A stretch of 64,000 nucleotides of DNA from an uncultured Aquabacterium sp. (GTDB taxonomy: Bacteria > Pseudomonadota > Gammaproteobacteria > Burkholderiales > Burkholderiaceae_C), in assembly GCF_913773725.1 (NCBI RefSeq), contig NZ_CAJYGK010000161.1, positions 62,001 to 126,000 on the forward strand, read 5' to 3'. Position numbers and translations under genes: made by a program. Shown here piece after piece: positions 18,270 through 35,083 of this stretch. How positions within the stretch are numbered: the first letter of the stretch is position 1; every line of letters begins with the position of its first letter. The notes under the pieces were generated by a model. The model ran no database searches. It was not told where the DNA came from and saw only the letters and a program-made list of their open reading frames with translations.

Positions 18270-19304
18270 GTGACCAAACCTCCAAAAATCAGCATCGTTA
18301 TTGCCTGCTATAACTACGCCAAGTACGTCGCGCTTGCGATCGAAAGCGCACTGAGGCAGAGCTATTCACACAAGGAGATCGTCGTCGTCAACGACGGGTC
18401 CAAGGACAATTCACTGGAGGTCATTGGTCGCTATGCTGATCAGGTTCAGTTGATTGATCAACCGAACCAGGGGCATATTGCTGCCTGTAACAACGGGTTC
18501 AAAGCAGCCACCGGCGACATCGTGATATTTCTGGACGCTGACGATTTGCTGGATACGGATACCTTGGAGAAGGTGGCGCAGGCGTGGCGACCGAACTGCT
18601 CGAAGCTTCAATATGACGTCCGCATCATCGACGCAGACGGACGCGACCTCGGACGACGTTTCTGTCATTTCACAGCAGATTACGACGCGGATCGCGTGCG
18701 GTCCGACTTCAAGCGCACAGGCACCTATCGGTGGCCTGTGACGGTCGGGAACGCTTACTGCCGCGCTTTCCTTGCCGAGGTCATGCCGCTCACGGTCAGC
18801 GAAGCCCCTGATGGATGGCTCAATACCATCGCGCCAGCGTTCGGCGATGTCATTACCATCCCCGAAGTGCTGGGTAGTTACCGGGTGCACGGCTCAAACC
18901 TGTGGTCAAACACCGGCAACGACAACGCCAAACTGCCCAGACGCATCTCACACCGGCAACTTGAAATCGCTGCAATGAAGCACTGGGCCCAGCGGAAAGG
19001 GCTACCTCCCGTCTCAGTAAACCCACTCGATTATGAACTCCCCTTCATCAACTATCGTCTGATGGCGATGAGGCTGGGGCTGGACTACGCGGGTCGCGAT
19101 AAGGACAACGTCCTTAAACTTGTCTGGGCCGGGTGCACGGAAGGTTTGAGGCAGCCAGTCCCCTGGACCCAAAAAATCGGTCATTTGGGCTGGTTCCCGC
19201 TGATTGCGATTCTGCCTAAAGCCTTGTTGCAGCCCCTCATCCGTTTCCGCTATAACCGCTCGGATTTTCTGTTGAGCGTGAAGCGCCGGCTTCAACTCAA
19301 TTGA
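18270..19304 (+). CDS. family 2 glycosyltransferase
   Basis: A GT-A glycosyltransferase of 344 residues starting at GTG 18270. IVIACYNYAKYVALAIESAL and VVVNDGSKDNSLEVI form the nucleotide-binding half, and VIFLDADDLLD holds the DxD metal motif. A later block (PDGWLNTIAPAFGDVITIPE, then GSYRVHG) is shared with the minus-strand glycosyltransferase at 29.8-30.8 kb, so the two are paralogues. It is the last gene of this plus-strand run; its stop overlaps the stop of the convergent GH16 gene by 8 bp. It probably acts on the exopolysaccharide repeat unit. Confidence 0.87.
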   Translation: MTKPPKISIVIACYNYAKYVALAIESALRQSYSHKEIVVVNDGSKDNSLEVIGRYADQVQLIDQPNQGHIAACNNGFKAATGDIVIFLDADDLLDTDTLEKVAQAWRPNCSKLQYDVRIIDADGRDLGRRFCHFTADYDADRVRSDFKRTGTYRWPVTVGNAYCRAFLAEVMPLTVSEAPDGWLNTIAPAFGDVITIPEVLGSYRVHGSNLWSNTGNDNAKLPRRISHRQLEIAAMKHWAQRKGLPPVSVNPLDYELPFINYRLMAMRLGLDYAGRDKDNVLKLVWAGCTEGLRQPVPWTQKIGHLGWFPLIAILPKALLQPLIRFRYNRSDFLLSVKRRLQLN

Positions 19305-20694
19305 ATTCCCTCCGATAGGCGCGCACCCAATCGATTTCCAGTGCTTGAGGTATCACGCTGGAGTCCACCCCGTATCGCCCGGCCCACTGACCGCCGACAG
19401 CAAGGTTCAGAATGATGTGCGCGGGGGCTGCTGCCGATCCATCCGAATAGTTCCAACGGACGTTTCGCGTGTAGATCCGCTCACCATCCACATAGAGTGT
19501 CAAGGCGTCGGGGGTCCATTCCGCACCAATGGTGTGCCAGCCCCCGCTGAAATCATACGGCGCGCGCCAGAAAGTCCATGTCGAATCGAAACTCGGATGC
19601 TTGAACGCGTAGCTTGCGGCAAGCCCCCTTGCATCCACCACGCCCGAGTGAATCATGTCACGGGTGTCTTCGACACCATTGTTCACGAATTCAAAAATAT
19701 CAATTTCGGGGGGCCATGCGAGCCTTCCGAACTCCGACACGTCAGAGTTAAGCCAGAACGCGGACGACAGACCAATTCCAGCGGGCATTCGAACCCTTGC
19801 TTCAAAATACCCGTAGCGGGTAGTCCAATCCGACCGGATCATCCCTGATTCGTAGTCAATTCCGTCCGCAGAGCCGGTTCTCACGCGTCGGGCAATCAGC
19901 TTCAGCACTCCATCTGCGACCACGTGGTTGCTGTTGTCTCGGTAGCGTTGCTGCTCATCGTTCAGCCTGTCGGACGTGCCTCCTGCATAAATGAATCGGG
20001 TAAACCACTTCGCCCGGTTCAGCGAGGAGCCATTGAATTCGTCGTTAAAGGCAAGCAAGTAGCCCGCCGGTACAAACGACCCTACGGCTGACACGATCGG
20101 TTCGGTCTGCTCGATGGCATCCCGCTGCCTCAAGGAGGCCGAGTCGACACGCGCCCGCGTACCATTCGTCAACACTTGGAACTCTGCGTTCGCGACGTAG
20201 TTGGGTGCCGTGAATTCGATGACATATCGGGCATAGGACGAACTCACTACGCTCACTTCGTGTGTCCGGAAGGGCTCTCCGGACGCCGTCCGGAAGATGA
20301 CTGCAAGACGAGTGGTCTTCCCGCTCGAGGCGTTGCGCGCCTGTACTTCGAGCCGATAGGATGCCCCGGGCTTCAACCCTGCGGTTCCTAGCGACTGGAA
20401 GACACGCCACCCGACGTCCATCGCCTTACCTCCTGGACGCAACTCGCTGGACGTGACCAGTGCATCCGACAGGTTCCAACCCGCGCTCCCGGATGTAAAG
20501 AGGCCGTTCACGATCAGTTCCGGATAGCTCACCTCCAGTCCCGTCGCCTGCACCACATCTGATTGCGTCACAACAGGCGCCTGGGATGGCGATTGCATCG
20601 TCTCAGAAGATCCTCCACCGCATCCCGCCACCACCGCCGTGAGAACCAAAGCGCACCACCTCCGCCGCCAGTATCCGTACCCCGATCCCGCCAT
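19297..20694 (-). CDS. GH16 lipoprotein with N-terminal carbohydrate-binding domain
   Basis: A predicted outer-envelope glycanase of 465 residues. The ATG at 20694 has GGAG 8 bases upstream and gives a lipoprotein signal with lipobox VVAGC near residue 26; longer in-frame starts add an unlikely leader. A CBM4/9-like beta-sandwich spans about residues 50-185 (NGLFTSGSAGWN at its start). A GH16 domain follows with the catalytic E-x-D-x-x-E motif as PPEIDIFEFVNNG, so both glutamates and the middle Asp are present. It is related to the next GH16 gene. In an exopolysaccharide locus it probably trims or releases the polymer, as the GH16 depolymerase ExoK does for succinoglycan. Confidence 0.85.
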   Translation of the reverse strand: MAGSGYGYWRRRWCALVLTAVVAGCGGGSSETMQSPSQAPVVTQSDVVQATGLEVSYPELIVNGLFTSGSAGWNLSDALVTSSELRPGGKAMDVGWRVFQSLGTAGLKPGASYRLEVQARNASSGKTTRLAVIFRTASGEPFRTHEVSVVSSSYARYVIEFTAPNYVANAEFQVLTNGTRARVDSASLRQRDAIEQTEPIVSAVGSFVPAGYLLAFNDEFNGSSLNRAKWFTRFIYAGGTSDRLNDEQQRYRDNSNHVVADGVLKLIARRVRTGSADGIDYESGMIRSDWTTRYGYFEARVRMPAGIGLSSAFWLNSDVSEFGRLAWPPEIDIFEFVNNGVEDTRDMIHSGVVDARGLAASYAFKHPSFDSTWTFWRAPYDFSGGWHTIGAEWTPDALTLYVDGERIYTRNVRWNYSDGSAAAPAHIILNLAVGGQWAGRYGVDSSVIPQALEIDWVRAYRREFN

Positions 20695-20967
20695 GCCTGC
20701 TCCAGAACAACCCATCCACATCGTGCTCTGGTGATCGGCACCTGCCGGGACAACTGAGGCGAAGAGTGGTAACGTCCCTCCGCCATTTCGCAACGTGGTG
20801 TAACGACCACCCTCTACGGCTGCCGGCCCACCTGCATAGGGGCCATTCCGCCTTTTGCGAGTACTGCATGCAAGACGGCCGCGCGCTCGGTACGCTGGAC
20901 CGGTATATTGCTCAATCAGGCCGTCACCAGGCACGGCTCAACTTGATGCTGTCCTCAGTCCGCCACG

Positions 20968-21834
20968 ATGTCCGACGCCCTGCGCCGCCGCCAGCTTTTG
21001 TCCACCGCGCTTGCGGCGTTACCGCTCTCCGCGTGTGCTGCGCCGCAGACCTCCTCCACGGCAGGCAGTGCGCCCCAGCCGTTGGGGGCAACACGCGAAC
21101 ACGGCTATCGGCTGGTCAAAGACTGGGACTTCGTCAATGTGATCCGGAGCCATGATGCGTTGCGCAAGGAATTTCACACCCGCTACATCTATGGTGGAGG
21201 CAAGCTCGATCATCTGAATGACGAGTGGCAACGTTATCGGGACAACGACAACCATGTCTTCACGCCTGATGGCCTGGCTTTGGTCGCAAGAAATGTGAAG
21301 GGGCTCACCTCAGGCGGAATCGAAAGCGGCATGCTTCGATCGCGCTGGAGCGGTCAGTACGGCGTCTTCGAGATCTCGATGCGGTGCCCGCGCGGACTTG
21401 GATCGTGGCCAGCGTTCTGGCTGAACCCCCAAGATGCCGTGTGGCCACCCGAAATCGATATTGTCGAGATCGTGAACAACGGCCGGGACACGACCAGGCA
21501 CAGCTTTCACTTCCTTCACGGCGCAGGGACAAAGAGCCGCCAGACCCGTGTTTCACGGCTGGACAGACACCACCGCTACCTGACGCAGGGTGACTTTGCA
21601 GACGGATTCCACACCTTTGCGGTGGAATGGGCTCCGGAGTACGTGAGGCACTATGTCGATGGTGCGCTGATCGTCGACCGGGACTTTTCCTGGATACACA
21701 ACGACGGTCGAGACGCTGGCGACGCACATGTGCTGGTGAACCTCGCCATCGGCGGCAAATGGCCCGGGCCTCCGGATGCACGTACGCTGCCAGCCCAACT
21801 GGACATCCAGTACATCCGAGTCTGGCAACGCTGA
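20968..21834 (+). CDS. GH16 family glycosyl hydrolase, lipoprotein
   Basis: A 288-residue GH16 enzyme with an RR-containing signal (LRRRQLLSTALAALPLSACA) ending in a lipobox-like LSAC; the RR makes Tat export possible. The catalytic motif is intact: PPEIDIVEIVNNG. The shared stretch LDHLNDEWQRYRDNDNHV matches the other GH16 gene (RLNDEQQRYRDNSNHV), so the two are divergent paralogues that differ in the carbohydrate-binding domain. The next gene starts 3 bases after the stop. Its likely role is cleavage or length control of the locus's own exopolysaccharide. Confidence 0.85.
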   Translation: MSDALRRRQLLSTALAALPLSACAAPQTSSTAGSAPQPLGATREHGYRLVKDWDFVNVIRSHDALRKEFHTRYIYGGGKLDHLNDEWQRYRDNDNHVFTPDGLALVARNVKGLTSGGIESGMLRSRWSGQYGVFEISMRCPRGLGSWPAFWLNPQDAVWPPEIDIVEIVNNGRDTTRHSFHFLHGAGTKSRQTRVSRLDRHHRYLTQGDFADGFHTFAVEWAPEYVRHYVDGALIVDRDFSWIHNDGRDAGDAHVLVNLAIGGKWPGPPDARTLPAQLDIQYIRVWQR

Positions 21835-21837
21835 ATC

Positions 21838-23142
21838 ATGAACAACGCGAACCCTTCTCCCCCAGACTTTGGCGATCGAAGAACAGCTTTGAGGTTGGGC
21901 CTCCTCCTGCCACTGCTGGGTATCACTGTGCTACAGCGCTTCGGTTTGACGCTGTCTGCGAACTACGCGCTGCAATCCGCATTGATCGGTACCTACGTGC
22001 TGCTTGGCATCGCGGTGGTGCGAGGCTACCTGGAACTGGCGCCTTGGCGCGTGATTGTCATTCTGGCAGGAGGCAGCATCGCCACCCTCAGTCTGCTGCT
22101 CAACACGACAGACGCCATGACCCTCGGCAAGACGTCCATGTCGTCGCTCATGCTGCTGCTGGCGATGTATCTGCCACTTGCATTCCGACTCCGGCCGGAT
22201 CCGCGCAACAAGGATGATCTCGACTGGCTGCTCGACATGCTGGGCAACCTCATTCTGTTGACAGCGATATTCGGTGTCGTTCAGTTCGTCGTGCAGTTCG
22301 GATTGAAAGACCCGCTTCTCTTCGATTTCACACCGCTGATCCCCGAGGTTCTGAGAGGCCCGACGGGCTTTAACACCGTCATCCCAGTGGGCAACCTGTT
22401 CAAGTCCAACGGGTTCTTCATACGGGAGCCCTCGGGGGCGTCATTCCTGATGGCATTCGGCATCATCCTGGAGCTGACGAGAGGGCGTCGCCCTTGGCGG
22501 CTGGCCGTGCTCATCGGAGCGCTGTTGCTCACCTACTCCGGTACCGGGTTGCTTGCCCTGGCGATCGGGCTGATGTTTCCGTTCGGCGTCAAAACCGTCT
22601 TGCGCTATGTCGGGGCAGCAGTGGTCGGCGGGGCGCTTCTCTGGGCGTTCGGCGATGCGCTCAACCTGTCCTTTACCTTGGGCCGAATCGGCGAGTTCCA
22701 ATCCGAGCAAAGCAGCGCTTACATCCGATATATCGCCCCGATGCGCCTGATTGCAGAAACTTGGGAGGCCAGTGCCACGGCGTTCTGGCTTGGCAACGGA
22801 CCAGGCTCCATCCTGAGAACAGAAGTGGGCTACGCGTTCCACGACCCCACCTGGGCCAAGGCCATTTTCGAGTACGGGGTTCCTGGGCTCCTGTGCTTCG
22901 TTGCCCTCTTCGGCCTGATGATGCACGAGTCAGGGCTGGGCTCATCTGTCAAAGCCACCCTGTTCGCTTACTGGCTCATCATGGGCGGGCACCTGCTGAC
23001 GCCGGAAAGCATTCACCTCAGCTGGCTGCTGCTGGCTTTCGTTCCCGTGGCGCAGAAGAAAGCAAAGCTGCCACATACCGGCCTCGGCACTGCAGCCGCC
23101 TTCAGCCCAGCTTTTCCATTACCTCGCGGACGATCTGGTTGA
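21838..23142 (+). CDS. O-antigen ligase/Wzy polymerase-like membrane protein
   Basis: A 434-residue integral membrane protein with about eleven hydrophobic helices and one large periplasmic loop between about residues 285 and 335 (RIGEFQSEQSSAYIRYIAP, then WLGNGPGS). This layout and the R-rich loop fit the Wzy polymerase / O-antigen ligase superfamily, which assembles repeat units at the periplasmic face. The sequence is poorly conserved, so the assignment rests on topology and context. The gene follows GH16 by 3 bases. Its last 41 bp overlap the 3' end of the convergent GT4 gene. Confidence 0.75.
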   Translation: MNNANPSPPDFGDRRTALRLGLLLPLLGITVLQRFGLTLSANYALQSALIGTYVLLGIAVVRGYLELAPWRVIVILAGGSIATLSLLLNTTDAMTLGKTSMSSLMLLLAMYLPLAFRLRPDPRNKDDLDWLLDMLGNLILLTAIFGVVQFVVQFGLKDPLLFDFTPLIPEVLRGPTGFNTVIPVGNLFKSNGFFIREPSGASFLMAFGIILELTRGRRPWRLAVLIGALLLTYSGTGLLALAIGLMFPFGVKTVLRYVGAAVVGGALLWAFGDALNLSFTLGRIGEFQSEQSSAYIRYIAPMRLIAETWEASATAFWLGNGPGSILRTEVGYAFHDPTWAKAIFEYGVPGLLCFVALFGLMMHESGLGSSVKATLFAYWLIMGGHLLTPESIHLSWLLLAFVPVAQKKAKLPHTGLGTAAAFSPAFPLPRGRSG

Positions 23143-24402: not shown

Positions 24403-25413
24403 TTATCTCATTAACTGGACACCGCAACCCTCAAGAATAGGTCGAACCGAATCCCATACGGCCCGTACAGCGACATCCCCATCGCCATCAAAACTATCGA
24501 AGAAAACTTGTGCAAAGCTATAAGACCGCTGCTGAAAAACCCCAGAAGAATAGGCCAGAGCAGAACTCCAGAATCCATACAACTCCACCTCAGGGTTCAT
24601 GGCAACGAAAATCTCCACGGGGACCCTTTTAAACTCTTCAGGGAGAGGGCGACACCCTGGTATAGAATTTACCAACTCCTGAACAGAAACGGGATCGCGA
24701 GGATGCGGCTTAAAATATACGGTTTCCCCGCTTGAAGTAAGGCGATGCACGAGGCTCTTGAGAAATTTCAGGTATGTCGCCTCTGCAGCCAAGCCGTCAG
24801 TTACCAAGGACTGCGACAATATCAACGAACCTGACAGTTCTCCTCGCTCAGGCGAGCGATCTCTGATTGCTCGCAAAGCTGGTTTTAAGTCGTACCACGG
24901 AATACTCACTTCCTTGCCAGGAATATTCTCGAACATGCTGTAGAACGCGTCAAACCCCGAGAGCGGAAAATAGCTAGGCAAGCCGACCCCGCTTACGCCG
25001 ACTTTCCGAAGAAAAGTCTTTGTAATATTCTTTGCGACAATGTACTTGTTTCCATCGTTCCAACTTGGATGCTTGAAGCTATGCGGCAGGTACAAAGCCA
25101 GTCCGTCCTCAAAACCGCAAATTCGACTGGAACGCCTCTTTGCGGCCAAATAAATCTCCACCTCCGACGGATTGAATCTGTTACTCAGGAATACGCTGTC
25201 CTCCGGGGAGAAATCAAACCGGGAACCCGATGAAAAGCGCAACGAATCAAATTTTCGCCCACCCAACAACGCATCAATCTCGGAAAACACAGAAGCAAAA
25301 TCCCCACAGTCAGTGTACTGGATACCAACCGCGTTGTGCAAACCTCGCTCATCCGCGATCAGCTTACACAGGAAATATTGCAACGGGCCGTTGTATACAA
25401 AATAATCAGACAT
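24403..25413 (-). CDS. polysialyltransferase-like glycosyltransferase (tentative)
   Basis: A 336-residue soluble protein, possibly a sialyl- or nonulosonosyltransferase. The stretch GSLILSQSLVTDGLAAEATYLKF followed by VYFKPHPRDPVS is the pattern seen in the alpha-2,8-polysialyltransferase / GT52-like families, where the HPR motif binds CMP-sugar. EVELYGFWSSALAYSS near residue 280 fits the second conserved block of those families. The CMP-sugar genes just upstream support this, but I recognise no close relative. Base composition is markedly AT-richer than in the flanking genes, with runs of A/T on both sides, suggesting transfer. Confidence 0.6.
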   Translation of the reverse strand: MSDYFVYNGPLQYFLCKLIADERGLHNAVGIQYTDCGDFASVFSEIDALLGGRKFDSLRFSSGSRFDFSPEDSVFLSNRFNPSEVEIYLAAKRRSSRICGFEDGLALYLPHSFKHPSWNDGNKYIVAKNITKTFLRKVGVSGVGLPSYFPLSGFDAFYSMFENIPGKEVSIPWYDLKPALRAIRDRSPERGELSGSLILSQSLVTDGLAAEATYLKFLKSLVHRLTSSGETVYFKPHPRDPVSVQELVNSIPGCRPLPEEFKRVPVEIFVAMNPEVELYGFWSSALAYSSGVFQQRSYSFAQVFFDSFDGDGDVAVRAVWDSVRPILEGCGVQLMR

Positions 25414-25535
25414 TGTCCCTCGGCGCCAAACACCGCCGCCATATCCGAAACGAATAGCCCGGATTCGCGGGCATTCTGTTTAATCTATATTAATTAATCT
25501 GCCATGCCGCCCGTGAATCGCCCAAAGCCCTCACA

Positions 25536-26255
25536 TCAGTCAGGATGCAGCAATCCCGAGAGACGCTGGGCGCCTCCAGTCGTAGCGGTCAGGTAGTTGA
25601 GGTAAGCCAGATCCTCTTCATAATCTATGTCGAATTTGCAGAACTTACTCGCCAACTCGAAAGCAACTCTATTACCGAGGAATAAAGGATCAAATGCTCG
25701 AGGGAAAGGAAAAATTTCACCGCCGAATATACGATACGCTGGCGGACAGTCTTGACGGCGAACCATCGAGCGCTGCTCAAAATTCTTAATAGATGGAGAC
25801 AAGAGACCGTCTTGGTCAAAAAAAACTCGAGGGTCCTCGGGCGTAACAACACACACGGAAGAGTACTGGCCCGTGGAGAACTTCTTGTAAGCGGACTCAA
25901 AGGTCTGTATATCACGAAGAGGATGCGTTGGCCGCAACCAAAGGACATTGGTTGGCAAGGGGATGTTTTCCCGTTCGCACTTCACACGGAAATCCTCGAG
26001 GATATCCTCCTCCATAGAAAAATCCATAGAGGCCTCCGCCCCTCGGAGAAAAGGAACGTCCGCACCATACTGCTCGCCCACACTGGCATAATCAGCACTA
26101 TCTGTAGACAAGATAACGCGGTCGATAAACGACAGCTTTTTGGCGAAATTTATGGAATGCGCCAACAGCGGAACTCCCGCGACCGTCGCCACGTTCTTCC
26201 CTGGATAACCCTTGGACCCGGATCTAGCCGGCACTATTGCCCATGTCGTCGACAT
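25536..26255 (-). CDS. CMP-nonulosonate (NeuA-like) cytidylyltransferase
   Basis: Activates an acidic nine-carbon sugar with CTP, in the manner of CMP-sialic acid synthetase. It has 239 residues. N-terminal WAIVPARSGSKGYPGKNV is the nucleotide-binding loop of the NeuA/KdsB family; LRPTHPLRDIQTFESA is the sugar-binding signature, and the FDIDYEEDLAYL tail holds the acidic metal motif. The ATG at 26255 has GAAGGGG 6 bases upstream, deciding it over the longer frame. The NeuB-like fusion gene ends 1 base upstream of this start, so the two are cotranslated. Its base composition is AT-rich like its neighbour. Confidence 0.85.
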   Translation of the reverse strand: MSTTWAIVPARSGSKGYPGKNVATVAGVPLLAHSINFAKKLSFIDRVILSTDSADYASVGEQYGADVPFLRGAEASMDFSMEEDILEDFRVKCERENIPLPTNVLWLRPTHPLRDIQTFESAYKKFSTGQYSSVCVVTPEDPRVFFDQDGLLSPSIKNFEQRSMVRRQDCPPAYRIFGGEIFPFPRAFDPLFLGNRVAFELASKFCKFDIDYEEDLAYLNYLTATTGGAQRLSGLLHPD

Positions 26256-26256
26256 C

Positions 26257-27774
26257 TTAACCCCTTCTATATTTATGATGTTCGCTTTCGTTAATACGCT
26301 TCTCTGATTCCCCAACTATCATTTCGGTCTCTCTTATGTTATCCACATACTCTTTAAATGCGGGTGTAGTGAGATCCACGGCCACAGCATCAAAGTGAGC
26401 CCATTCGGTATTTCCCAGTTTCACATGCTTCTCGAGCATCCTGGCACCTGCTGCGACGGCCAGTGCTGACGCTTTCCACCCAAAGTCGTGACTAGAATAG
26501 CCAGGGATGATTCGATCGTGTTTCAGCGACAGGTCGTGGTAGTGCCTGACAACGCCCACATTACAGTCGTGCAACGGCGTTGGGTACGCAGAATTGCACT
26601 GCAATAGATAGAGCTGACTGCATTTCGAGAAGTTTTCCAATACGAAGTTCTCGTACTCCGCATCGGTCATCCCGGTGGATAAGACGACAGCGCCGTCATA
26701 GGTGTCAGCCACATACTTCAGATAGTCTGTGTGCTCGGAGATGGTGGACGGCAGTTTCACCATCGCAGGGTTGAGGTCCTGCATGAACTCAAACGAAACC
26801 TGGTCCAATACCGAGGCAAACCAGCCGATTCCGACCTCATTGCAGAGCTGATCGACAAAGAGGAAATCCTCCTTGGACAATTCAAGCTGGTAGCGATAGT
26901 CGGCGAAAGTTTTCCCGAAAGGTGAGACATAAGGGGAGGCGAGCTGTTCGGGGGTGTAGAAGCCGGCAACATCACGCTTCTGCAGCTTGATGAAATCGGC
27001 ACCCGCGGCCTTACTGGCACGAATCATCCTTTCGAGACGAGTACGGTCACCAAAGTGGTTGGTAGTCAGTTCCGCAACGATCGACACTCTGTTTGGACTG
27101 TCTGGGCGAGTTGATGCATGCGGCAATGACGCATTGAGCTCACTGGGCGTCAGGGCGCTGAAGCTTCGGCCGCCAACATGCTTGAGGTTGAGCAGCGAGT
27201 CACGCAGAAAGTACAGCGTGTTGACGAAATAGAACTCCTGTACCGAGATGCGAAGCGCGGTTTCTTCTGCATCCTGCGGTGCGAAATCCTTTCCGAGCTT
27301 CTGACTCAGCCCGACGCCCGCATTGAAGTCGAACCCGACCATGTAAACGGTTTGCTGCCGCCCTTTGAGTTCAGCAACCTTACGTGCGATCTTCAGTGCA
27401 GTGAGAAACAGCACGTCTTCAATGACCAGATCATCGCTCATGAAGCGCTGCATGATCAGATCTGATGAAGCCTGGGTAAGCGGCACGTGAGGGGCCACGT
27501 GAACCTTCTTCCCTTTGGCATCGAACTCGTGGCTTGCAACGTACAGGCGCGACCGGAATTGCGACTCTGCCAGCCCCCGCTCCACCCATTCACCGTGAAA
27601 AACGGTGATGTCTGCAGGCACGATGCGCTCGGCATCATTGATACCGATCACCAAAGAGCCCTGATAGACCTCAGGTCTGACGTCGTCGACGCTGGGCCCC
27701 TTACCGACGATGTAGATCGTATCGGTGCTGTATATCGACGCGATATCGTTGAGAAGGGTCGAGAAATTGTCCAT
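26257..27774 (-). CDS. fusion of an MptE/DUF115-like domain and a NeuB-like nonulosonate synthase
   Basis: A 505-residue protein with two parts. Residues 1 to about 225 form a Rossmann-like domain with YIVGKGPSVDDVR and LVIGINDAERIVPADI, resembling the MptE-like/DUF115 family found in flagellin glycosylation proteins. Residues 230-500 are a NeuB-type TIM barrel that condenses a hexose derivative with PEP. Its motifs are IVAELTTNHFGD, AAGADFIKLQKRD, KLPSTISEHTDYL, LSTGMTDAEYENF, LLQCNSAYPTP, GYSSHDFGWKASA and LEKHVKLG. The usual C-terminal SAF (antifreeze-like) domain is missing. ATG 27774 has a GAGG-type site 7 bases upstream. It overlaps the phosphatase gene by 74 bp. The sugar product is unknown. 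Confidence 0.8.
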   Translation of the reverse strand: MDNFSTLLNDIASIYSTDTIYIVGKGPSVDDVRPEVYQGSLVIGINDAERIVPADITVFHGEWVERGLAESQFRSRLYVASHEFDAKGKKVHVAPHVPLTQASSDLIMQRFMSDDLVIEDVLFLTALKIARKVAELKGRQQTVYMVGFDFNAGVGLSQKLGKDFAPQDAEETALRISVQEFYFVNTLYFLRDSLLNLKHVGGRSFSALTPSELNASLPHASTRPDSPNRVSIVAELTTNHFGDRTRLERMIRASKAAGADFIKLQKRDVAGFYTPEQLASPYVSPFGKTFADYRYQLELSKEDFLFVDQLCNEVGIGWFASVLDQVSFEFMQDLNPAMVKLPSTISEHTDYLKYVADTYDGAVVLSTGMTDAEYENFVLENFSKCSQLYLLQCNSAYPTPLHDCNVGVVRHYHDLSLKHDRIIPGYSSHDFGWKASALAVAAGARMLEKHVKLGNTEWAHFDAVAVDLTTPAFKEYVDNIRETEMIVGESEKRINESEHHKYRRG

Positions 27775-28405
27775 TGAAGACCTCGTCATTGACACGAACC
27801 AAGCAGTTATGTTCTAAAGCCAGCATCAGACCCGGAAGAAGGTCCCACGCGTAAGCTCCCTTTGGATTGATGAACCTCGCAAACGAGCCGCGAATCACAT
27901 TGAGCAGGTTGTAGACCGCGCAGCCTGTTACCCGGTATTCGACCGCATTTCTCAGCGCGTCGACAATCCCCTCGTTGAACGAAGACGACAGTCCAGTGAT
28001 GCGCGAATACACCGGAGGAACATCGTCACCGGTGATGAGTCGCTCATTCAGTTCAGGCATCATCAGCATGCTGCCTAGATGACGCCCTTTGCGCCAGATG
28101 CTGAGCGACACCCCCCACTCCTTTAACCCACTGCAGAAATTCTCAGTTCCATCGATAGGATCCAGAAGCGCAACATATCCGTCCTGAGATGGCGACTGAA
28201 AGTCGTAAGACTCTTCCCCCACAAAGACGAGGTCGGGCAGGTGCTGCTCTATGTGAGCGCGGACCAGCCGCTCAAGGAACTGGTCCGAACTGGTAACTGG
28301 GCTTCCGTCGGACTTGTAGGTAATATTGTATCGGCCAGCTTGCACCTCGGCCATGTTGTCACTGATAAGCCGCTCGACCGATTCAAGGAGTGCGCGCGTA
28401 TCCAT
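27701..28405 (-). CDS. inositol monophosphatase-family sugar phosphatase
   Basis: A 234-residue Mg2+-dependent phosphatase of the IMPase/CysQ/FBPase-like family. Metal ligands are in FVGEESYDF and LLDPIDGTENF (the family DPxDGT motif), with AYAWDLLPG supplying the third Asp. Its last 74 bp are also read as the start of the MptE-NeuB fusion gene, so the final 24 residues (after the conserved core) are dual coded. In this context it may dephosphorylate a nonulosonate-phosphate or its precursor, but inositol or another sugar phosphate is equally possible from sequence alone. Confidence 0.82.
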   Translation of the reverse strand: MDTRALLESVERLISDNMAEVQAGRYNITYKSDGSPVTSSDQFLERLVRAHIEQHLPDLVFVGEESYDFQSPSQDGYVALLDPIDGTENFCSGLKEWGVSLSIWRKGRHLGSMLMMPELNERLITGDDVPPVYSRITGLSSSFNEGIVDALRNAVEYRVTGCAVYNLLNVIRGSFARFINPKGAYAWDLLPGLMLALEHNCLVRVNDEVFNGQFLDPSQRYRVDIQHRYDLHRR

Positions 28406-28412
28406 AATATCC

Positions 28413-29789
28413 TCAGGTTAATAACTTCCAAGAAATGGGCAGCACGACGACTGCTCCGAGAACGGTAGGCCAGATCATCCCAATTGCATCAAGAAGGGGA
28501 CGCTTCGAGTCAAAGACGTGCCGCGCCGTGACAGCTCGCGCAACGTAGCCAATGGGTACAGCCAACAGCTTGGCCCCAAGTACGCCCGTCAACCCGAAGA
28601 CAGACCCTGCAATCAGCATGGCTACCAGCAAAACGCTGTTGTTCGCAATCCCGAGAAGCGCGCCGAACCGGGTATATCCCATCGCGTTCATAATTTGAGT
28701 CCCCGGTACGCTCGAAGCTCCACTGCTGACAGTCCAAAGAAGGGGCAGGAGAATGGGCACGACCGCAGTAGCCATTTCCACGCCAACCCAGATCCGCAAT
28801 ACTGGCACCATTAAAAAGAGAAAGACACAGACCCCGAGGGCAGAAAGACCTGAGAACACCAACGTAAATCGCCTGTATGTGGCAGCCAACCAAGCTTTAT
28901 CTGAAAGTCGACTGCTGGCCTCCGGAAGCAAGAACCCCCCCCCTGCCTGGAGAGCGGCAACCATGGCGTTCGCCACGCCCATCGCCACGGCATAGGCGGA
29001 AAGCGCCGTCAGGCTCATTGTCGCTGCAACAATGAATCTGTCTGCCTGAGCCCCAAGAAACCCAAATATGGCCTGGACCCAGACCCACCGCCCAAAGTGA
29101 AGCATTTTGCGGCGGAAATAGCGAAGATTGGTGGTCAGGAGATTGGGTGCATTCACCAAGTTGCGAGCCCAACTCAGCAGAATGAACGCAGCCATCACGA
29201 AAGTAAGACACACGGCGAACATCGTCGCCCCTGCGTCCTTCGTCAAACTTGCTGCCACTGTGCCAGCAACCGGAACGGAAACACGCAAGCTGCTTTCAGC
29301 AATGGCAAATGGTCTGTAGAGACGCAAGCCTTTGATGACGTTCAGTCCGAGACCGGTCAGCATCGACGCTCCGATGGTGGTCACCACAAGAAGACCAAGC
29401 ATCAGATGAGAAACGCTTCCAGCAACGAGTTCGGTTCTTTCAGAAATAATCGGGTAGAGCGCTGCCACAACGACACCAATCACCCCCACAGCCAGTGATA
29501 ACAGACAGATCACGGTAAAGCCGGTGGAAAACACGTGTGCCAGTGCTTTAGGATGGTGCTGCGTTCTGGCGATGTACCTCACTACCGTAGGCCCGATTCC
29601 GAGGTCCGTCAATGCGCCGGCAGCTACGAACGAATTGAACAAAACAACAAGACCAAACTGCTCCGCACCGAGAAAATGCAGCTGCATCGGAATGGTCAAA
29701 AGGACGACCACCTGACCCAGGACCGTACCCAGCGCATTACTGGCAAACAGAGTCGAGAGGTTTTTCCCTCGTCGCCAAAGATTCAACAT
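28413..29789 (-). CDS. Wzx-type oligosaccharide flippase
   Basis: A 458-residue polytopic membrane protein with about 12-14 helices, of the MATE-like/MVF polysaccharide transporter superfamily. The N-terminal helix NALGTVLGQVVVLLTIPMQL and the DLGIGPTVVRYIA stretch are characteristic of Wzx proteins. It should move lipid-linked repeat units across the inner membrane for polymerisation by the Wzy-like protein at 21.8 kb. Its start codon shares a base with the stop of the upstream glycosyltransferase (TGATG), and the phosphatase gene starts 7 bases after its stop, so it belongs to one minus-strand operon. Confidence 0.85.
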   Translation of the reverse strand: MLNLWRRGKNLSTLFASNALGTVLGQVVVLLTIPMQLHFLGAEQFGLVVLFNSFVAAGALTDLGIGPTVVRYIARTQHHPKALAHVFSTGFTVICLLSLAVGVIGVVVAALYPIISERTELVAGSVSHLMLGLLVVTTIGASMLTGLGLNVIKGLRLYRPFAIAESSLRVSVPVAGTVAASLTKDAGATMFAVCLTFVMAAFILLSWARNLVNAPNLLTTNLRYFRRKMLHFGRWVWVQAIFGFLGAQADRFIVAATMSLTALSAYAVAMGVANAMVAALQAGGGFLLPEASSRLSDKAWLAATYRRFTLVFSGLSALGVCVFLFLMVPVLRIWVGVEMATAVVPILLPLLWTVSSGASSVPGTQIMNAMGYTRFGALLGIANNSVLLVAMLIAGSVFGLTGVLGAKLLAVPIGYVARAVTARHVFDSKRPLLDAIGMIWPTVLGAVVVLPISWKLLT

Positions 29790-31953: not shown

Positions 31954-32712
31954 TCAAGTCAATATACCGATGCGCCTGAGCGAAGGCTCGAGCTCAGCCT
32001 TCCAAACCCTGTATCCGGCGGGGCTGAGATGGAGCAGGTCAGGCGCAAAATAGGCTGGAACGGGATTGCCCTCGCTGTCAGACAAGGCCGTGTGCAGATC
32101 GACCACGACGACGCCGTCTCTGGAAGATGCGAATTGTTTGATGCCTTCGTTCAGCTCGGCAATCCTCGCGGGGTTGACTGGCGCAGCGGCGTTCAGGCGG
32201 GGCGGTACCGTGCAAAGAACCAGCGGGGTGGTGGGCAGCCTCTTCTTCAGCATGCCGGCCATCGCGGAAATGTTGCGCAAGGCCACTGAGGGCGCCTGCA
32301 ATGCGCTCAGATCAGCAGATCCGGCCAGCATCACAACCGCAATCGGATTCAGGTCCAGCACGTCCTCGCCGAATCTGAAAAGCATGCCGCGCGTCACGTC
32401 ACCGCCAATACCCCGATTGGCCGTCTTCACCTGGGGGAAGTCTTTTGCCAGGGTGGACCAACCGCCTGTCAATGAGTCGCCCACGAAAACCAGTGCCCGC
32501 TGATCGGCGGCACGTCGGGACCAGAAGTGCGCACGATTCTGGTTCATGTAATCGAACACACGGATTGCGCCTTCTCCAGGCCAATCGACTTGGCGCGAGG
32601 GGTACGGAGTCGGGCCGCTCTGCTGCGCACGAACCGACGCACCCGAGCCAAGGGCGAAGCCCCAGGCGAGAAGGTGGCGTCGCGTGCACCAGTAAGCGCC
32701 GTCAGTGCTCAT
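31954..32712 (-). CDS. SGNH/GDSL-family exported hydrolase with altered block III
   Basis: A 252-residue exported protein. The N-terminus CTRRHLLAWGFALGSGASVRA carries an RR motif compatible with Tat export. SGNH blocks: I as VFVGDSLTGGW with the nucleophile Ser, II as NRGIGGDVTRGML with Gly, and V as DLLHLSPAGY with Asp and His. Block III, normally G-x-N-D, reads LAGSADL, so the oxyanion-hole Asn is replaced by Ala. It may be an esterase acting on acyl groups of the exopolysaccharide, but activity is uncertain because of that change. Start ATG 32712 overlaps the epsG stop by 11 bases. Confidence 0.78.
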   Translation of the reverse strand: MSTDGAYWCTRRHLLAWGFALGSGASVRAQQSGPTPYPSRQVDWPGEGAIRVFDYMNQNRAHFWSRRAADQRALVFVGDSLTGGWSTLAKDFPQVKTANRGIGGDVTRGMLFRFGEDVLDLNPIAVVMLAGSADLSALQAPSVALRNISAMAGMLKKRLPTTPLVLCTVPPRLNAAAPVNPARIAELNEGIKQFASSRDGVVVVDLHTALSDSEGNPVPAYFAPDLLHLSPAGYRVWKAELEPSLRRIGILT

Positions 32713-33598
32713 TGATGACCATGCCAGCAAGACGGATGCCACTGCGAGCCATGCCCATACCGAGCTTCTCCAGGCCGTCCATCTTGGTGCGGTTGCGCCG
32801 CCCGATCACAAGCGCTGCACCGCATTTGGCTGCGATGACACGCGAGTCGGACCCGTTGGTTGCACCCGGGGTGTCGACCACGACATGGTCGAATTTGTTC
32901 AGCAGATCGTTGATGAGCAAGCCGAAAGCGGGACGCTGCACGAGTTCAAGTGGGTTCGGCGGGACCGTGCCCGCCGGCATGACGAAAAGACTGGGAAGAT
33001 CCGAGATCTGGTGAATGACGTGAGACTCCTCTCGCCCCATCAGGATAGAGCTGAGGCCCACATCATTCCGGATCTTGAAGACTTCATGCTGTCGAGGTGT
33101 CCGGAGATTGGCGTCGACGAGAAGGGTCTTCGCACCAAGCTGGCTCAGGACCACGGCCAGGTTGGCGGAGAAGAACGTCTTGCCGTCGCCAGAGTCAGGG
33201 CTGACGATGGCCAGTGCTGCCTTGGGCTTGTCTGGCGTGAAGAAGTCCGTCAGCAACTGGCTCCGCAGATCCCGGAATACTTCAGATTGCTCGCCGAACG
33301 GGTCGATTGCCGCACGGAGTTCTTCGGACAACTCACGTTCGCCTTTGATGGCGTACGGGTAGTGAAACTGTTGCGAGAGGGCCCAGAGCACTTCGTCGTT
33401 GTTGGCGAAGTTGAGCGCGACAGCGGATTCCCCAAAACGCAGGTTGTTGGCTCGCTGGTACAGGACGATCTGTTCGATCTGCTCGTCGGTCAAGCCCTTC
33501 GAGCGGCGCAAGACGTCGCCAATGCTGGAGTCAGCGCTCGTGGACAGTGCAAGTTCGCCTTCGGAGGGTGCACGGTCTGCCGGGTTGTTGGTACTCAT
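32702..33598 (-). CDS. epsG: EpsG-type tyrosine kinase-like protein with MshEN-like N-terminus
   Basis: A cytoplasmic BY-kinase/CpsD-like P-loop protein of 298 residues that partners with the chain-length protein. Walker A is SPDSGDGKTFFSANLA near residue 133, Walker A' is LLVDANLRTP, and Walker B is HVVVDTPGATNG. No Tyr-rich C-terminal cluster is visible; it ends at GMVINEH. Residues about 25-85 (SIGDVL, LTDEQIEQIVLYQ, RFGESAVALNF, VLWALSQQF) resemble the MshEN/T2SSE N-terminal repeat that binds c-di-GMP in MshE, although the first RLG motif is degenerate. It lies 54 bases downstream of epsF. Confidence 0.85.
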   Translation of the reverse strand: MSTNNPADRAPSEGELALSTSADSSIGDVLRRSKGLTDEQIEQIVLYQRANNLRFGESAVALNFANNDEVLWALSQQFHYPYAIKGERELSEELRAAIDPFGEQSEVFRDLRSQLLTDFFTPDKPKAALAIVSPDSGDGKTFFSANLAVVLSQLGAKTLLVDANLRTPRQHEVFKIRNDVGLSSILMGREESHVIHQISDLPSLFVMPAGTVPPNPLELVQRPAFGLLINDLLNKFDHVVVDTPGATNGSDSRVIAAKCGAALVIGRRNRTKMDGLEKLGMGMARSGIRLAGMVINEH

Positions 33599-33652
33599 GT
33601 GGTTTGACTCTGGTCGTTCGGTACGAATGTCTTGCTGGCAAGCAGCAAAGGC

Positions 33653-35083
33653 TCAGCGGGCGAGCAAGCGATTGCGAGAAACCGAAACCTGTTCGACGAT
33701 GCGGCCCGTACGCAGGCTGCCGGGCTTTGCGCTGGCATCAGGCAACACGGCCAGAACCGGCAGCCCGAGCTTGCTTGCTACTTCCTGTTCGCCACGCAGC
33801 CTCGGTGTCACAAGCTCAAGCAGCAGGCTGGTTGCGATGGCCAGCAAGGTACCCAGCACCAAGGCGACGGCCAAAGTCAGCTTGACATTGGGAGACGATG
33901 GGAAGGCAGGGGCACTCGCGTCTCGCAGCATGGAGACGTTCGTCTGATTGTTCTGGCTTTCCAGGCTGGTCTGGCTCACCCGGGCCATGACGAGGTCGTA
34001 GTTCCGTTGTGCATGTTCGACCTCGCGTTCAAGCACGGCCATGTCATCACGGCCAGCCTTGAGTCGGAGCACCTTCGCTCGTTGCGCGTCAAGTTCGGCT
34101 CTGACCTGCGCGAGACGGGCCTGGTTGATGTCGGTGGTCACGCCAACGCTGGACGTGACACGTCGCGTTTCGGAATCGATGCGGCGACGCAACTCCTGAA
34201 TATTGGCGCGCAGTTCGACGACGGAAGGGTGCCGATCACCAAATCGCGCATCCATTTCCTGCAGTTTGGCCTCCTGACGAGCCAGATCCGTTGTCAGGCC
34301 CACCAGGACGGGGTTGGACAGCGCTTCCGTTGTGCGGTCCCCGCGCTGCTCGGCAGCGGCCTTGCGGCTGACGGATTCGCTGACGATGGCCTGAAGGGAC
34401 ACCACTTGGCTGGAGAGTTCGTTCAAGCGTGCATTCTCGACATCGAGGCGCTCGTCAGTCGACGTGATGCCGCTCTGCTGCTGATACGTGGACAGCTTTG
34501 CGCGGGCCTTCTCAAGCGCGTCGCGGGCCTGCCGGGCACGGTCATCGAAAAAGTTGGTGTACTGCTTTGCGGGCTCGACGCGGAGTTCCAGGGTCACATC
34601 CATGTAAGCCTTCACGATCGCATTCGTGACAAGCGCGGCAAAGGCTGGCTCGGTCGCGGTGTAACTGACGCTGATGATGTTGGAATCCTTCGACGGCTTA
34701 ACGTCGAGTCGGGACTGGATCAACTGAGCCAACCACGCTTCGAAGTCGCCCTTTCCACCTGTGGCGTCATTCCACTGCGCGCGCACTTGCCGGTTCTCGG
34801 TGATACGGATTGCACGCATGGCGCGTTTGACGACCCGCTCGCTCCGCACGATGTCTGCCTGGGTCAGGATGACACTTGAGGAGCCAGTCAGAGGCACCAC
34901 ATTGCCATTGATGGGATCAAAGGCGCCGTTATTGCGCCCGTCTACCAACACGGTAGCGGTGGCGGTGTACTGCGAAGGCAGCAACAGGACCGTCAGGCCT
35001 GCGGCAATCAGCACGGCAACCAAGATGCTCACGCTGAGCAGCCAGCGGGCTTTGAGGACGAGAACAAGCTGCTTGAAGGTCAT
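33653..35083 (-). CDS. epsF: chain-length determinant protein EpsF (Wzz/GNVR)
   Basis: A polysaccharide co-polymerase of 476 residues that sets polymer length together with EpsG. It has an N-terminal membrane helix (about 13-34, LLSVSILVAVLIAAGLTVLL), a Wzz domain, long periplasmic coiled coils (about 165-380), a GNVR-like segment, and a C-terminal helix (LTLAVALVLGTLLAIATSLLL) near 415. It ends with a short cytoplasmic tail. It is the first gene of the minus-strand arm that runs to 23.1 kb, and its leader contains the inverted repeats and promoter-like element described separately. Confidence 0.88.
   Translation of the reverse strand: MTFKQLVLVLKARWLLSVSILVAVLIAAGLTVLLLPSQYTATATVLVDGRNNGAFDPINGNVVPLTGSSSVILTQADIVRSERVVKRAMRAIRITENRQVRAQWNDATGGKGDFEAWLAQLIQSRLDVKPSKDSNIISVSYTATEPAFAALVTNAIVKAYMDVTLELRVEPAKQYTNFFDDRARQARDALEKARAKLSTYQQQSGITSTDERLDVENARLNELSSQVVSLQAIVSESVSRKAAAEQRGDRTTEALSNPVLVGLTTDLARQEAKLQEMDARFGDRHPSVVELRANIQELRRRIDSETRRVTSSVGVTTDINQARLAQVRAELDAQRAKVLRLKAGRDDMAVLEREVEHAQRNYDLVMARVSQTSLESQNNQTNVSMLRDASAPAFPSSPNVKLTLAVALVLGTLLAIATSLLLELVTPRLRGEQEVASKLGLPVLAVLPDASAKPGSLRTGRIVEQVSVSRNRLLAR

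Follow-up and report, generated by a model that had tools for sequence, protein, structure and literature searches.

The stretch of DNA analysed here, called the window, covers 64,000 nucleotides of the genome of an uncultured Aquabacterium sp. (contig NZ_CAJYGK010000161.1, positions 62,001 to 126,000). On its minus strand lies a run of four genes encoding an IMPase-like phosphatase, a protein in which a Maf/MptE/GT42-like domain is fused to a NeuB-like synthase, a NeuA-like cytidine monophosphate (CMP)-sugar synthetase, and a polysialyltransferase-like glycosyltransferase. A preliminary description of the window had named these genes, and each was confirmed in its place by a Pfam match (Table 1). 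They are part of an exopolysaccharide locus of the Wzx/Wzy-EpsF/EpsG type, which according to Pfam and NCBIfam profile matches extends from about 15.0 to 35.1 kb of the window and holds glycosyltransferases, two GH16 proteins, a weakly Wzy-like membrane protein, a flippase, an acyltransferase and a GDSL-family protein. The cassette is real, conserved and mobile, and it is a new variant: its NANS-type synthase is joined in one protein to a Maf/GT42-like domain and has an IMPase as partner.

Table 1. Cassette genes and other features of the exopolysaccharide locus (window positions; aa, amino acids)
Feature	Position	Strand	Evidence
IMPase-family phosphatase, 234 aa	27701..28405	-	PF00459, 74.2 bits, 1.6e-20; over cut-off
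505-aa fusion: Maf/MptE/GT42-like domain and SAF-less NANS-type synthase	26257..27774	-	PF03102 on residues 250-492, 148.3 bits
Fusion N-terminal half, residues 1-224, Maf/MptE/GT42-like Rossmannoid domain	27103..27774	-	Predicted structure
Fusion C-terminal half, residues 227-505, putative phosphoenolpyruvate-condensing NANS-clade (9-phosphate) synthase, no SAF	26260..27096	-	
NeuA-like CMP-sugar synthetase, 239 aa	25536..26255	-	PF02348, 60.4 bits, 2.9e-16
GT38-type polysialyltransferase-like glycosyltransferase, not core	24403..25413	-	PF07388, 69.5 bits (cut-off 23.3), 4.8e-19
Wzx-like flippase	28413..29789	-	PF13440
Wzy/O-antigen-ligase-like membrane protein, weak match	21838..23142	+	PF04932, 21.7 bits, below cut-off 31.7
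EpsG-type kinase and EpsF chain-length protein	32702..35083	-	TIGR03017, 480.5 bits, over cut-off; TIGR03029, 287.7 bits, below cut-off 313.8

The open reading frames (ORFs) of the IMPase and the fusion overlap by 74 nucleotides (nt) in the window, and the ATG of the NeuA-like gene, at 26255, lies one base past the TAA of the fusion; the stretch scanned with profiles for this gene was 25536-26258. The best PDB match of the NeuA-like protein was NeuA (9ftb) and its best NCBIfam model was PseF, at 92.5 bits below the cut-off of 205.7. Besides exceeding the PF07388 cut-off, the GT38-type protein carries both motifs of GT38 polysialyltransferases, EDG at 102 and HP at 237. The G+C content of the four genes is 0.49-0.54 versus 0.55-0.60 in the five adjacent locus genes measured and 0.64 in the window, which suggests transfer from elsewhere.

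Conservation and spread of the three-gene module

The fusion is a real protein family. Of 8000 candidates scored in a protein search, 1070 were relatives with E <= 0.001, and the best 120 of these had a query coverage of 88-100%. A scan in which each species was represented by a single genome yielded 49 loci, and the fusion is complete in 47 of them; the host names comprise alpha-, beta- and gammaproteobacteria, actinobacteria, cyanobacteria and a metagenome-assembled genome of Deinococcales. Three loci were added, from two E. coli records, one of them chromosome-sized and unannotated, and one Enterobacter plasmid. The 51 loci compared are the 47 with the whole fusion, these three and that of genome G305.

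The IMPase gene lies upstream of the fusion in 50 of the 51 loci, with one ORF in between in L046. An overlap between the two was seen in 45 of the 49 loci measured, and in 41 of them it spans 47-104 nt; the start of the tblastn match served as the fusion start, and the gaps in L041 and L042, where the match begins at residue 20, are probably artefacts. Chance proximity was rejected on the basis of this upstream position across phyla and of the overlaps. The window IMPase exceeds the PF00459 cut-off and shows the metal-site signature of the IMPase family (E, D, I/L, D, T and WD). Residues E64, E65, D82, I84, D85, T87, W187 and D188 are at least 95% conserved in 51 sequences (the window and 50 loci).

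A NeuA-like gene was found at most five ORFs away in 46 of the 51 loci; in L035 and L038 it is encoded on the other strand, and in five loci the call is weak (E 4e-10 to 4e-18; L007, L026, L031, L033 and L047). The five loci where none was found are L009, L014, L017, L034 and L043, the first three being near contig ends. The pairing of the fusion with NeuA, to which the preliminary description had tied its proposal, is present in genomes other than the window's own. Relatives of the polysialyltransferase-like protein occur near the module in just three loci (L019, L045 and L048). The conserved core consists of three genes, encoding the IMPase, the fusion and the NeuA-like protein, and not of four.

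Among 398 Pseudomonadota genomes only two, the window genome and G305, had the whole fusion, and among 299 genomes of the window's family the window genome was the only one; the three other genomes listed for the genus did not contain it. Such a sparse and scattered cassette, rare in its own lineage and dispersed over phyla, is as expected of horizontal spread. By DNA identity, the E. coli plasmid copy occurs in four of 5,426 complete E. coli genomes, in three of them on plasmids. Two plasmid loci (L051 and L053, from E. coli and Enterobacter) are capsule loci with an ABC-type exporter, in which the NeuA-like, IMPase and fusion genes lie beside insertion sequence elements and integrase genes. 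This arrangement suggests a mobile capsule type. Carriage by phages was rejected, as no relative was present in viral_contigs and three phage records match the NeuB half only.

The synthase half and its probable phosphorylated route

The preliminary description had called the C-terminal half a NeuB-like synthase without SAF domain. This held, since PF03102 matches and no match to SAF (PF08666) was found in the window fusion. Synthases elsewhere in the wider clade (L058, L119 and L131) lack the domain too, so possession of SAF is not what defines the clade. In an IQ-TREE phylogeny of 80 sequences, human NANS, the fusion and other synthases with the KxQK motif formed a clade of 44 with an ultrafast bootstrap (UFBoot) of 92, within which an inner clade of 32 held NANS and the fusion (UFBoot 99). 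All six other references, two NeuB sequences, PseI, SpsE, 6ncs and 3g8r, fell outside; the reference set had neither a bacterial 9-phosphate synthase of proven function nor LegI, and the identity of the NANS sequence used was supported by the match of its last 67 residues to PDB 1wvo. In BLASTP the NeuB half scored 126 bits with this NANS; the whole fusion scored 82 bits with PseI and 42 bits with N. meningitidis NeuB in phmmer, values that compare only roughly with the former. We assign the synthase half, by phylogeny, to the NANS-type clade, apart from NeuB, PseI and SpsE. Residues K266 and R267 of the window protein are predicted to act at the sugar phosphate. A closer kinship to a non-NeuB aldolase would have undermined the earlier proposal, but identity as a DAHP or KDO8P synthase was rejected.

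These results bear on whether the cassette belongs to an ordinary NeuB-, PseI- or LegI-type pathway with its other enzymes encoded elsewhere and an incidental IMPase. The best NCBIfam matches do point that way, being NeuB_NnaB (132 of the 399.65 bits required) and PseI (115.2 of 340.25) for the synthase half and PseF for the NeuA-like protein, but all are far below their cut-offs. Since the NeuB, PseI and SpsE references lie outside the clade of the fusion, the window assembly, searched for the NeuB, Epimerase_2, NanE and AGE families, has a single NeuB-family protein and no Epimerase_2 match, and the IMPase is so constant a neighbour, we regard an ordinary pathway as highly improbable.

The gene neighbourhoods of different synthase types were compared using ORFs called by a simple script, and the 25 commonest families per set were considered. 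Set A comprised 27 non-fusion KxQK loci (26 found in the phylum search and one in the family search); set B held 20 loci with KxQ[TS] synthases, all of the same family as the window. Besides synthase type, taxonomy also distinguishes the two sets, whose members were chosen by their scores against a profile of the fusion itself. For set A, 101 of 104 neighbours were compared to Pfam, three cut by contig ends being left out. For the fusion set the number was 90 of 129; the other 39, which included transposases, relatives of the polysialyltransferase and near-duplicates, had been removed manually. Same-strand neighbours in set B included Epimerase_2 (13 of 91) and DegT (14 of 91), and no phosphatase was among the commonest of its 75 families. 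In set A the HAD family PF08282 accounted for 7 of 101 neighbours, and neither Epimerase_2 nor DegT was among the commonest of 86 families. These two were likewise missing from the commonest of the 72 families of the fusion set, as were sugar-phosphate isomerases and kinases.

Three further loci deserve mention here. In L119 (4209-6974), from the window's own order, a KxQK synthase that lacks SAF and stands alone is preceded by genes for a SIS_2 isomerase and a HAD protein and followed by a NeuA-like gene; this locus possibly represents a related route with a different sugar. In L122 and L131 NeuA is joined to a HAD domain. Together with the neighbourhood contrast, these arrangements point to a phosphorylated intermediate, with the IMPase perhaps replacing a HAD enzyme in the fusion family. 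The phosphatase of the animal NANS route is a HAD enzyme. On the strength of the gene association, we propose that the IMPase is a nonulosonate-9-phosphate phosphatase.

Substrate and product

The preliminary description had noted the lack of NeuC or another route to N-acetylmannosamine (ManNAc) in the window. That observation holds and extends to the whole assembly for the three ManNAc-source families searched: in this assembly, rated 99.3% complete (a figure for the window genome alone among 48 carrier genomes), there was no match to Epimerase_2, NanE or the AGE family (PF07221). A ManNAc route hidden elsewhere in the genome was rejected to the extent of these families, the search being confined to them. 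The single NeuB-family protein is the fusion itself, and one bifunctional enzyme of the PMI/GMP type (PMI, phosphomannose isomerase) is encoded.

Synthesis of N-acetylneuraminic acid (Neu5Ac) by the animal route, from ManNAc-6-phosphate and phosphoenolpyruvate (PEP) via Neu5Ac-9-phosphate, would also suit a NANS-type synthase. Among the 48 carriers, NanE was over its cut-off in five (one borderline) and the AGE family in 17, and Epimerase_2 is also met, as detailed below. Eight carriers (G000, G001, G014, G024, G026, G033, G035 and G039), which are the window genome and seven of the other 47, have none of the three families over cut-off, and Epimerase_2 is not a common neighbour of the fusion. 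We therefore consider Neu5Ac an improbable product.

Mannose-6-phosphate (Man-6-P) is a known alternative substrate of the NANS type according to excerpts of PMC6200933 and PMC9000132. PF01050 was over its cut-off in 28 of the 48 carriers (weakly in five) and PF20511 in six. We assume that AGE-family proteins may also act as mannose-6-phosphate isomerases. Man-6-P is likely to be available in most, not provably all, carriers. Another aldose phosphate, such as glucose-6-phosphate, arabinose-5-phosphate or heptose-7-phosphate, would lead to a different and perhaps undescribed ulosonic acid. This would fit the carriers that have no recognisable PMI, the many invariant residues peculiar to the fusion family, and the SIS_2 isomerase adjoining the synthase of L119, which implies that substrates may vary in the wider clade. 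The known use of Man-6-P by NANS-type enzymes and the scarcity of isomerase and kinase genes around the fusion speak against it, and we judge it unlikely, though less so than Neu5Ac.

The best explanation as a whole, which we hold with some confidence, is that the cassette makes a nonulosonate by a phosphorylated route, most likely 2-keto-3-deoxynononic acid (Kdn) from Man-6-P. The phosphorylated route taken by itself is likely; for Kdn as the product the chances are about even. From gene content and kinship we infer the following steps. The synthase half would condense PEP with an aldose 6-phosphate, most likely Man-6-P to give Kdn-9-phosphate, from which the IMPase would remove the phosphate, and the NeuA-like enzyme would form the CMP-sugar. 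In the window the GT38-like enzyme, perhaps along with the fused domain, may transfer the sugar into a repeat unit, to be exported by the Wzx/Wzy-EpsFG system. The preliminary description had offered such a Kdn-like route with the IMPase as phosphatase, and both the constancy of the IMPase and the clade of the synthase support it.

Several observations weigh against this explanation. Epimerase_2 is over cut-off in 25 of the 48 carriers, where a ManNAc-derived product is possible. Thirteen carriers have neither a strong PF01050 or PF20511 match nor PF07221, and so no recognisable mannose-6-phosphate isomerase; the guanylyltransferase part of GMP_PMI (TIGR01479) is found in ten of them (seven over cut-off), G024, G040 and G041 have no such part either, and PF10432 had no match in the thirteen. 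The NANS sequence used here reaches 147 bits against N. meningitidis NeuB, so similarity scores alone cannot settle the synthase subtype. At the other KxQK synthases only 7 of 101 neighbours are HAD proteins, which means that linkage to a phosphatase is by no means general beyond the fusion family. Neither an IMPase nor a NeuA-like gene occurs in the 20 kb examined of L034 (Nesterenkonia), L044 has the synthase half only, and no characterised member of the fusion family was among the material searched.

Compared to known systems, the fusion shares with NANS its synthase clade, the KxQK motif, the PYxS..GKT..LE stretch and the need for a phosphatase after condensation. NANS ends in a SAF domain and has nothing fused at its N-terminus, whereas the fusion shows the reverse. 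The same three-enzyme logic (Man-6-P to Kdn-9-phosphate, Kdn and CMP-Kdn) is described in excerpts of PMC6200933 for Bacteroides thetaiotaomicron and Prymnesium parvum; the likeness drawn is one of pathway logic, the phosphatase used there is the B. thetaiotaomicron Kdn-9-phosphate phosphatase, and those excerpts do not mention a fused Maf/GT42-like domain. In Serratia marcescens KL1/KL2, the excerpts of PMC9000132 report a NeuAB capsule of mainly Kdn (about 20:1 over Neu5Ac) that requires neuB. There too NeuA and a fused NeuB are encoded in a capsule locus, but the extra domain is sugar-phosphate-isomerase-like (COG1082). L085 and L094, from the window's own family, encode NeuB with SAF and AP_endonuc_2, which resembles the layout reported for the Serratia synthase; both fall outside the NANS/KxQK clade, and a SIS_2 gene adjoins the L085 copy (seen in L141). 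Among the matches listed, no open-licence PMC paper names the fusion or its IMPase pairing in its title or in the displayed portion of its abstract.

The usual basis for predicting sialic-acid-like sugars in bacteria is the presence of NeuC and NeuB. If the proposed route is correct, Kdn-type sugars are made by an animal-like phosphorylated route in a widely scattered cassette whose annotation reads merely 'N-acetylneuraminate synthase family protein'. A KxQK motif next to an IMPase gene could serve as a simple annotation rule that lends itself to testing.

The fused N-terminal domain

The N-terminal half of the fusion has no significant Pfam match. PF01973 (MptE-like) was found in two of 45 homologues, with a best E of 0.014 and below the gathering score, and not in the window's own domain. 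The MptE-like label of the preliminary description was nevertheless borne out by the predicted structure, which belongs to the Maf/MptE/GT42 fold group, sharing the fold over most of the domain and standing well above unrelated structures. According to excerpts of PMC11339370, the central domain of Maf is pfam01973 and resembles Cst-II. The domain studied here differs from Maf, MptE and Cst chains in its identity of only 12-16%, in the absence of a significant Pfam match, and in being fused to a synthase. All 51 loci compared retain the fusion, and for a synthase the attachment of a sialyltransferase-like domain would be an uncommon architecture.

A free-standing form of the domain was rejected. 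Eight proteins among 500 candidates came into question, none convincingly standalone: four, with lengths of 156-209 aa, come from contigs of just 0.9-1.3 kb, another two stop shortly after entering the NeuB half, and two carry NeuB. A lone synthase half (about 62% identical) does occur in Actinoplanes aureus (L044, 10016-10888), with no N-terminal half or IMPase in the 20 kb examined.

Tentatively, the fusion may be bifunctional, its Maf/GT42-like half transferring the nonulosonate whose synthesis its NANS-type half starts. If so, phosphatase, synthase-transferase and CMP-synthetase would form a self-contained mobile unit decorating glycans or proteins with a Kdn-like sugar in several phyla. 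The argument that the three-gene unit stands alone, so that the fused domain must be the transferase, was not upheld and gives a hint only, after the flanks of five of seven seemingly isolated loci were inspected. Recognisable opposite-strand genes on both sides and no transferase were seen only in L028; a transferase-like gene adjoins the unit on the other strand in L029, and the flanking ORFs of L003, L010 and L049 have no Pfam match and may be spurious. In L028 (8076-13407, Synechococcus sp. UW105) the unit lies between genes for RNase III and an RTX-repeat protein, and the fused domain is its sole transferase candidate.

Elsewhere in the exopolysaccharide locus of the window, two divergent GH16-family glycanase genes (PF00722) occupy 19297-21834 and possibly serve to trim the polymer.

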